The notes under the pieces are model-generated. The model made no database searches, was not told where the DNA came from, and saw nothing but the letters and a program-made list of their open reading frames with translations. The translations under genes and the position numbers were made by a program. 64,000 bases of DNA from Stigmatella erecta. GTDB taxonomy: Bacteria > Myxococcota > Myxococcia > Myxococcales > Myxococcaceae. Location of the stretch: NCBI RefSeq assembly GCF_900111745.1, contig NZ_FOIJ01000003.1, positions 186,001 through 250,000 of the forward strand, given 5' to 3'. This document shows positions 43,077-44,359 of this stretch, one piece after another; position 1 is the first letter of the stretch, and every line of letters begins with the position of its first letter.

Positions 43077-43409
43077 ATGGCAGGCGCGAACGTGCTGAAC
43101 ATCGGAGATGGGGATTTCACCAAGGAAGTCATCGAGTCCGACAAGCCGGTGCTCGTGGACTTCTGGGCCACCTGGTGCGCGCCCTGCCGGGCCATCGCCC
43201 CGGCCATCGATGCGCTGGCAGATGAGTACAAGGACCGGGTCAAGGTCGCCAAGATGGACGTCGACCACAACCAGGACACGCCCCAGAAGTACGGCATCCG
43301 CTCCATCCCCACCCTGCTCGTCTTCAAGGGCGGCAAGGTCGTCGAGCAGATCGTCGGCACCGGCGGCGGCAAGGCCAAGATCGAAGAAGCGCTCAAGAAG
43401 GCGCTTTAA
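43077..43409 (+). CDS. trxA: Thioredoxin
   Basis: A 110-residue thioredoxin. The active site is [14 protein letters not shown] near residues 28-41; the usual WCGPC is WCAPC here. The cis-Pro loop is [13 protein letters not shown]. The ATG at 43077 has a strong GGAGGAG ribosome site; an in-frame ATG at 43059 is less likely. It reduces disulfides in the cytosol. It is transcribed alone and followed by a strong hairpin. Confidence 0.96.
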
Positions 43410-43424
43410 CCGGCTTCACCCCCC

Positions 43425-43455
43425 GCCCGCGCGGAGCATCTTGGCTCGCGCGGGC
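43425..43455 (+). terminator. Strong GC hairpin after trxA
   Basis: GCCCGCGCGGAGC (43425-43437) pairs with GCTCGCGCGGGC (43444-43455) with one bulged G and an ATCTTG loop, starting 15 bases after the trxA stop. There is no T-run, so it may pause or protect the mRNA end rather than act as a classical terminator. Confidence 0.5.
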
Positions 43456-43719
43456 GCGGATCCGGGTTGTACCGGGGCGCGGACGCGTCCCGCCTCGTGG
43501 CTCCGCTCTCCTGCCCGGAGAGTGTTCGAGCCGTGAACTTCGGAACGCCACACGCATAAAACGTGCATTTCGTTCTGGAGAAACACCCGTTTTCATCCGT
43601 ATTCTCTGTGACGCTCGTGCCGCGTGGGGGCTTGCCCCCCAACAGCGGCCGAGTGCCCGGCGGGAAATCACCCCCTGCGCGGGCTGTGCAACAGGCCCGG
43701 CCCACCTGTGAGTTCTGTC

Positions 43720-43750
43720 CACCTGGAGAGGGGAAACCCTCATCCAGGTG
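43720..43750 (+). promoter_or_regulatory. GAAA-capped inverted repeat abutting a promoter
   Basis: CACCTGGA (43720-43727) pairs with TCCAGGTG (43743-43750), and the inner GAGGG pairs with CCCTC around a GAAA tetraloop, with a single bulged A at 43742. It ends exactly one base before the TTGACA box at 43751. It could be an RNA hairpin (terminator or sRNA end) or a palindromic operator. Confidence 0.5.
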
Positions 43751-43780
43751 TTGACAGTTCTGTTCCCGAAGGCGAATAAG
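43751..43780 (+). promoter_or_regulatory. Probable sigma-70 promoter of the AT-hook/zinc-knuckle gene
   Basis: TTGACA at 43751-43756 is a perfect -35 box. AATAAG at 43775-43780, after 18 bases, matches four of six -10 positions. The predicted transcript would have a leader of about 50 bases before the ATG at 43836, with a CAGGAG ribosome site. Confidence 0.45.
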
Positions 43781-43835
43781 CGTTTTCTACGGTTTTCTCT
43801 GGCTTCACCTGCTATTAGGAATCTCAGGAGTATTC

Positions 43836-44180
43836 ATGTCTCGCCCCTCTCGCAAGAATGTCACCATTTCTCCCCAGGCACTTCCTCCCGCACTCGCATC
43901 CTGGGCGGAGGCCATTGGAGATGCGATCGGCCGGGGAATGGCGCGGGCCCTTCACAACAGTGGATTGGACTCCCTGGGGGGCAGCAGCAGCACCGTTCTC
44001 AGCGCGTCGTCCATGCGGCGCCGGGGCCGTCCGCCCAAGCTCGTGACGGCCGGTCCGGTTCCTCCCGAGCGCCGCTGCACTGTCTCGGGCTGCGATCGTG
44101 AGTCGCGGTCCAAGGGCCTGTGCTCGGCGCACTACCAGGCCGAACGGCGCCGCCAGCTGGCCGCCGGCAAGCCCTCCTAA
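43836..44180 (+). CDS. Small DNA-binding-type protein with AT-hook and zinc knuckle
   Basis: A 114-residue basic protein. A hydrophobic-helical N-terminal part (ALPPALASWAEAIGDAIGRG) is followed by an AT-hook core RRRGRPPK near residue 62 and a four-ligand zinc motif CTVSGCDRESRSKGLCSAHY (C-x4-C-x8-C-x2-H) near residues 81-100, ending in a basic helix (QAERRRQL). Similar zinc knuckles occur in short DNA-binding and phage-derived proteins. Function is unknown; nucleoid or transcription regulation is inferred. It has its own promoter-like signal and a large upstream gap. Confidence 0.82.
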   Translation: MSRPSRKNVTISPQALPPALASWAEAIGDAIGRGMARALHNSGLDSLGGSSSTVLSASSMRRRGRPPKLVTAGPVPPERRCTVSGCDRESRSKGLCSAHYQAERRRQLAAGKPS

Positions 44181-44359
44181 GCAAGGCCTTCCCCTTTCCC
44201 AGGGGTGCCTCACGTCCCAGGGCCCCCTGGCGCGGATTCCCCTCCCGGCACGCGCCCGGGAGGGGCGCGGTGACGAAGGCGAAACGGCGGAAAAATCCCA
44301 TATCGCGGGCGGCGTGTTTCATACACCATGCGCCCCCTCCACCCCGCGTGGGGACTGCG

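Follow-up and report, generated by a model that had tools for sequence, protein, structure and literature searches.

The window, by which we mean the whole 64-kb stretch of DNA analysed, comes from a 9.2-Mb myxobacterial genome, and the region studied here (43410-43835) is the gap between a thioredoxin gene (trx; PF00085 match, 2.4e-32) and a gene for a 114-residue protein that combines an AT-hook (RRRGRPPK) with a zinc-type motif (C-x4-C-x9-C-x2-H). This AT-hook/zinc protein matched Pfam Zf_WRKY19 at 22 bits, under the cut-off of 27, and its gene is followed by one for an MgtE-type transporter. The features of the locus are:

43077 to 43409, plus strand: thioredoxin gene (trx), the 5' neighbour of the gap
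43422 to 43459, plus strand: hairpin H1 (15 pairs), 12 nt past the trx stop codon, with no T tail
43473 to 43492, plus strand: H2, an 8-bp hairpin
43496 to 43535, plus strand: H3, a 14-pair hairpin
43538 to 43580, plus strand: H4, an 11-pair hairpin
43612 to 43655, plus strand: H6, a possible hairpin, weakly supported
43656 to 43714, no strand assigned: near-invariant block upstream of H8
43715 to 43757, plus strand: hairpin H8, 18 pairs with a GAAA loop, paired in all four genomes compared, its 3' arm overlapping the -35 box
43751 to 43756, plus strand: -35 box TTGACA, matching the consensus at 6 of 6 positions
43758 to 43765, plus strand: T-rich tail TTCTGTTC, directly after H8 and identical in all four genomes
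43774 to 43780, plus strand: presumed -10 region GAATAAG
43826 to 43830, plus strand: ribosome-binding site AGGAG, read from the sequence, with GGAG conserved in an alignment of 24 loci
43836 to 44180, plus strand: gene for the AT-hook/zinc protein

A search of 145 genomes of the order with the AT-hook protein found matches (E 0.001 or better) in 116; six other members of the source genome's genus were among those searched. As orthologs we kept 59 loci with E-values of 1.8e-19 or better (59 proteins, 55 of them distinct) and set aside the weaker matches (2.5e-12 and worse) as paralogs. A trx match lay upstream on the same strand at 42 of the 59 loci, many of the remainder having only a short flank retrieved. 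Four genomes (G000, G077, G078, and G079) are referred to below as Stigmatella-type, a name that is inferred. In open-licence papers we recognised no literature on the AT-hook/zinc protein or the gap, most subscription papers being outside the scope of that search.

A preliminary description of this DNA, made from the sequence alone, had pointed to the gap as lower in GC than its surroundings and as having no reading frame. Its GC content is 0.627, falling to 0.574 over 43540-43835, versus 0.691 for the window. A six-frame listing does contain mechanical ORFs in the gap (e.g., 43563-43754 on the plus strand, 63 residues), yet none looks coding, since the four close relatives differ here by insertions and deletions that are not multiples of three; a small coding ORF was ruled out by these frame-breaking changes. 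The same description had mentioned one other small hairpin besides a GAAA-capped repeat; more than one is present, and the gap as a whole gave a folding z of -6.3 (100 shuffles). Whole-gap values in the four Stigmatella-type genomes were -7.6, -6.4, -7.5, and -5.5 (20 shuffles), and 25 random control windows had a mean of -0.76 (sd 1.5, minimum -4.5). Among 19 gaps longer than 150 nt, delimited by a crude gene caller that overlooks some genes, this one ranked first for structure (z -5.8 plus, -4.2 minus, for the first 500 nt of a gap called as 43410-43951), the runner-up, which contains two tRNA genes, reaching -3.5/-3.7. Some of the orthologous gaps are structured too, with z from -1.4 to -6.5 in fifteen further ones, and since the Corallococcus-type gap L027 reached -6.5 and the gap after the AT-hook gene -6.0, gaps with z this low are not unusual. 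The latter gap (44181-44300; -6.0 plus, -4.4 minus in four genomes) is presumably the terminator of the AT-hook gene.

Judged from sequence conservation, 43751-43835 reads as the leader of the AT-hook/zinc gene together with its conserved promoter of the sigma-70-like type. The TTGACA box was kept at 55 of the 59 loci (41 distinct sequences, many from close relatives), and the four loci that lack it have trx and the AT-hook gene almost side by side. Its distance to the start codon is 77 or 78 nt at 45 of the 55 loci and 77-89 nt at 53; it lies further off in L067 (-105) and in L046 (-120), where the start codon was probably chosen too late by our script. Set beside the sigma-70 consensus (TTGACA/TATAAT), the promoter has a perfect and deeply conserved -35 box, a 17-18-nt spacing, and a start codon at an almost constant distance; it differs in a -10 match of 4 of 6 at best and in a hairpin that replaces the GAGTC element found upstream at other loci. 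The 4 of 6 refers to AATAAG with an 18-nt spacer, the alternative reading, GAATAA, matching at 2 of 6 with 17 nt, and CAAATA occupies the -10 place with a 17-nt spacer at 33 of the 55 loci. A scan for promoter consensus sites reported none and so missed this conserved promoter as well. Over the promoter and leader the alignment z in the four genomes was -0.3 on the plus strand and -1.5 on the minus strand. We also noted two 21-nt copies (CGTTTTC...TTCTCTG, 81% identical), one at 43588-43608, where the gap is richer in AT, and the other at 43781-43801, close to where transcription of the AT-hook gene presumably starts.

For the left part of the gap we derived a consensus of successive hairpins from a sequence-only alignment of the four Stigmatella-type genomes, and counted 78 of its 124 predicted pairs, omitting long-range pairs, H5, H7, and the promoter part (an omission that removed one of 12 doubly changed pairs). 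Both partners had changed in 11 of the 78 pairs, a number that none of 500 shuffles reached (their mean was 6.3), and 96.5% of cells were paired, a value also reached by no shuffle of 500, while the number of further pair types, one of five measures, was reached by 41 of 500. Sliding the partners by 1-3 columns left 0-2 doubly changed pairs and 36-50% paired, a comparison in which the structure is favoured because it was derived from the same alignment. The double changes fell in H1 (5 of 15 pairs), H2 (3 of 8), H3 (one, alongside G-U/G-C changes), H4 (one), and H6 (one); H8 had none. Within H2-H4, the five doubly changed pairs were matched or exceeded in 55 of 500 shuffles and the further pair types in 319, whereas no shuffle of the 500 attained the covariation score or the percentage paired. 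As the four genomes are in effect two pairs, the independent changes are few; compensatory changes nonetheless appear above control in these alignments, mainly in H1-H4.

Shuffled alignments pointed to the same hairpins. H1 had an alignment z of -6.9 on the plus strand and -6.1 on the minus strand (-6.6/-5.4 in an earlier run with 60 shuffles and other boundaries), and H2-H4 had -7.1 and -2.5 (-5.8/-2.2 in that earlier run), which is a preference for the plus strand. Nine coding pieces used as controls lay between -1.2 and +0.9 on the plus strand, and the gap before trx gave -2.8 plus and -1.1 minus. H2-H7 taken as a whole reached -3.9 plus and -2.8 minus (60 shuffles, earlier boundaries), and for H6-H7 (43607-43714) shuffling gave no support (+0.5 plus, -1.1 minus), so that H6-H7 was dropped as a conserved RNA. 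We read these results as RNA-level support for H1-H4, with a strand preference for H2-H4, and H1 as the presumed trx terminator. Other genera are also structured at this position, the first 120 alignment columns past trx giving z of -3.3 to -6.9 in the Corallococcus, Myxococcus, and Hyalangium-type sets (25 shuffles). As a separate observation, columns 241-360 of the Corallococcus alignment of the gap had z -4.8 on the minus strand and -1.9 on the plus strand (25 shuffles), possibly an opposite-strand RNA in that genus.

The preliminary description had placed the GAAA-capped inverted repeat at 43720-43750, touching a perfect -35 box. Both are there, and the repeat is longer than claimed: H8 has 18 pairs over 43715-43757, and its 3' arm goes beyond touching the box to overlap it. 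The arms are CTGTC/GACAG, CACCTGGA/TCCAGGTG, and GAGGG/CCCTC, with one A and two T bulged out. The 61 nt at 43706-43766 have a minimum free energy of -33.1 kcal/mol (z -4.9; none of 200 shuffled sequences folded as well); an energy at the level of H8 is reached by 22 of 12,791 45-nt windows of this GC-rich 64-kb window, and by energy alone H8 is not exceptional. Among the four genomes the hairpin varies by one G-C to G-U change and in its loop, and every change within 43672-43775 falls in that loop or that G-U pair. Its alignment z was -6.4 plus and -6.2 minus (-7.4/-7.4 in the earlier run with 60 shuffles and other boundaries); with a single wobble, no double change, and nearly equal z on both strands, these data do not separate a structure acting as RNA from one acting as DNA.

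The frequency of H8-like energies in the window, together with the absence of the strong hairpin from the 51 other TTGACA loci, is what one would expect if the gap were merely GC-rich sequence folding by chance around an ordinary promoter, with only H1 and the promoter functional. We consider this very improbable, as the low whole-gap z (-5.5 to -7.6) is common to the four genomes and compensatory changes occur in sequence that differs among them (over 43410-43499 they agree at 35 of 90 columns).

Further along the gap, 114 of 120 columns are identical over 43656-43775, including 57 of 59 in the block just upstream of H8, compared with 32 of 42, 54 of 69, and 56 of 68 fourfold-degenerate sites in three neighbouring genes. 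The longest unchanged run in the 1.9 kb compared is 43672-43733 (62 nt). Such a near-invariant block is compatible with operator sites or with an RNA. In 65-nt folds of the 51 other TTGACA loci the 18-pair hairpin was absent; weaker stems with the -35 box as the 3' arm were predicted at many of them, the best (-12.5 kcal/mol) at six Corallococcus-type loci, with marginal plus-strand z of -0.6 to -2.2 by group (shuffled alignments). The overlap of arm and -35 box is therefore not special to the four genomes.

What most other loci have in place of H8 is a GAGTC element, present within 40 nt upstream of TTGACA at 48 of the 51 non-Stigmatella loci (at exactly -28 in 39 loci) and at none of the four Stigmatella-type ones. 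GTCA, complementary to the TGAC within the -35 box, occurs within 32 nt upstream at 47 of the 51. GAGTC is often followed by GACCC as an imperfect inverted repeat, and GAGTC-N6-GACCC had a minus-strand z of -4.3 in 19 distinct sequences (1 of 200 shuffles as good) and of -1.1 in another group of 7 sequences. These observations bear on the possibility that H8 acts as a DNA palindrome, an operator at which a dimeric regulator would cover the -35 box and repress (or activate) the AT-hook gene, with more sites in the block at 43656-43714. The palindrome's overlap with the -35 box, the near-invariance of the block, and the position of H8 where other loci carry GAGTC all fit such an operator. Against it, the arms lie about 29 bp apart from centre to centre, which is wide for one dimer, the sole change in the stem breaks the DNA symmetry and keeps the RNA pair, and the four genomes have no second copy of the arms plus loop. 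The preliminary description had offered a complex operator as one explanation. GAGTC is missing from precisely the four genomes with the hairpin, and weak inverted repeats are predicted at the other loci as well; on these sequence comparisons we regard an operator as a serious possibility that probably does not hold. TTGACA is kept at 55 of 59 loci and the 18-pair hairpin is found in four only, which makes the promoter an old and ordinary one, with the strong hairpin as a local reshaping of the element upstream of it.

Three related ideas about H8 and its counterparts were rejected. A repeated palindrome family was discarded, CACCTGG/CCAGGTG occurring at 13 places in the source genome (reversed control 4) and the sequence of arms plus loop only here; a match to group II intron domain V (43721-43749), the highest-scoring of the sub-threshold Rfam hits, was weak, at 19.6 bits versus a gathering score of 61. 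A regulon defined by GAGTC-N6-GACCC-N12-TTGACA found no clear excess (191 matches versus 174 for the reversed control, five genomes, up to 3 mismatches), and among the matches listed the perfect pattern occurred only at this site, in two genomes.

The other explanation raised in the preliminary description was an unannotated small RNA. We built covariance models of H2-H4 (R1) and H6-H8 (R2) and searched 96 genomes of the family; both had matches with E below 1e-25 in the four Stigmatella-type genomes only, at one place each. Weak matches numbered 13 in 12 genomes for R1 (E 0.016-1, with G079, one of the four, accounting for two) and 4 for R2 (E 0.09-0.63), those of R2 in G083 and G108 lying on other contigs than the AT-hook gene. 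As the best 30-38 candidates per genome were scored under strict filters, weak relatives could be missed; among 28 sources (the window and 27 of the 59 orthologous loci) no other match reached an E-value of 0.1. Strong matches in only four of 96 genomes do not support a family-wide small RNA, and that candidate was dropped. What stands of the earlier suggestion is plus-strand structure with compensatory changes in four genomes, which gives the idea of an RNA partial support. The conservation that it had proposed to look for in relatives was found for the promoter, at 55 of 59 loci, and for this plus-strand structure in the four genomes only.

An independent trans-acting small RNA of Stigmatella could still be envisaged, with H8 as its end and a length of about 150 nt (43607-43767), or more if it began at H2, and here nearly invariant sequence leading into a terminal hairpin with a T-rich tail, together with the plus-strand structure of H2-H4, would fit. 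We think it unlikely, given the alignment z of 0.5 for 43607-43714, the restriction of strong matches to four genomes, and the lack of any Rfam family at or above its gathering score for 43380-43860; a promoter scan also found none upstream, a negative that weighs little because the same scan missed the conserved promoter. A known myxobacterial small RNA, Pxr, is likewise intergenic with several stem-loops; it is reported to occur in Stigmatella and Myxococcus, to have nla19 and a gene for an NADH dehydrogenase as its neighbours, to be 108 nt long in M. xanthus, and to have single-copy orthologs well conserved across genera and an apparent sigma-54 promoter (PMC5568312). The gap differs in its locus, with trx and the AT-hook gene as neighbours, and in the limitation of its strong structure to one group. 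The different locus, along with the Rfam result, led us to reject Pxr or another known RNA.

Like an intrinsic (rho-independent) terminator, H8 is a stable GC-rich hairpin with a short loop followed by a T-rich stretch; it differs in its bulged stem, its imperfect tail, and a 3' arm that contains most of the next gene's -35 box. The tail TTCTGTTC has 5 T of 8, the nine other loci listed having 1-4, and its place in the promoter spacer may constrain it anyway. A terminator scan reported no site, H8 included. We favour a terminator for H8 on account of its T-rich tail, of arms that hardly change beside a loop that does, and of a position at which transcription from upstream would meet the next promoter; an operator comes close behind.

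Our preferred reading, held tentatively and with somewhat less than even confidence, is that the gap is a compound element, with a promoter on the right, the folded 3' end of trx on the left, and H8 as a terminator-like hairpin that shares an arm with the -35 box. We infer that an RNA exists here and that H1-H4 (43422-43580) would form the folded 3' end of the trx transcript. H8 and its T-rich tail would have arisen at the upstream element of the promoter, in the Stigmatella-type genomes only, as a hairpin much more stable than the stems of other loci, and with a 3' arm taking in most of the -35 box it would stop RNA polymerase arriving from upstream, whether reading through from trx or transcribing a short RNA, at the promoter of the AT-hook gene. 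A more specific version seems improbable to us: a structured RNA of about 340 nt, running from the trx stop codon to the -35 box and new in the Stigmatella lineage, would control the AT-hook gene in cis, its last hairpin having grown from a weak ancestral inverted repeat until the -35 box became a terminator arm, with trx read-through and firing of the AT-hook promoter competing at the same bases. If H8 is a terminator that shares an arm with the promoter, the locus would be a case of terminator evolution in place inside a conserved promoter, traceable because GAGTC and weaker stems persist at this position in related genera. A folded end of the trx transcript would then also be on record for a group in which we found few RNAs described. 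Otherwise, what is left is an ordinary terminator plus a promoter.

Some orthologous loci showed features of their own. In the Myxococcus alignment a near-palindrome, GGGAAACACGTATCCC (GGGAACCACGTATCCC in two), lies ~65-85 nt upstream of TTGACA at 11 of 11 aligned loci and looks like an operator in its sequence. The record of L090 (BNCN01000003.1), titled Comamonas sp. KCTC 72670, carries a Myxococcus-type locus, so the Comamonas name looks wrong. L038 (Myxococcus-type genome G104) has an opposite-strand ORF between trx and the AT-hook gene that, judged by eye, looks like polyphosphate kinase 2, and the gaps of L021, L040, and L042 are of similar length to that of L038 (939-957 nt).
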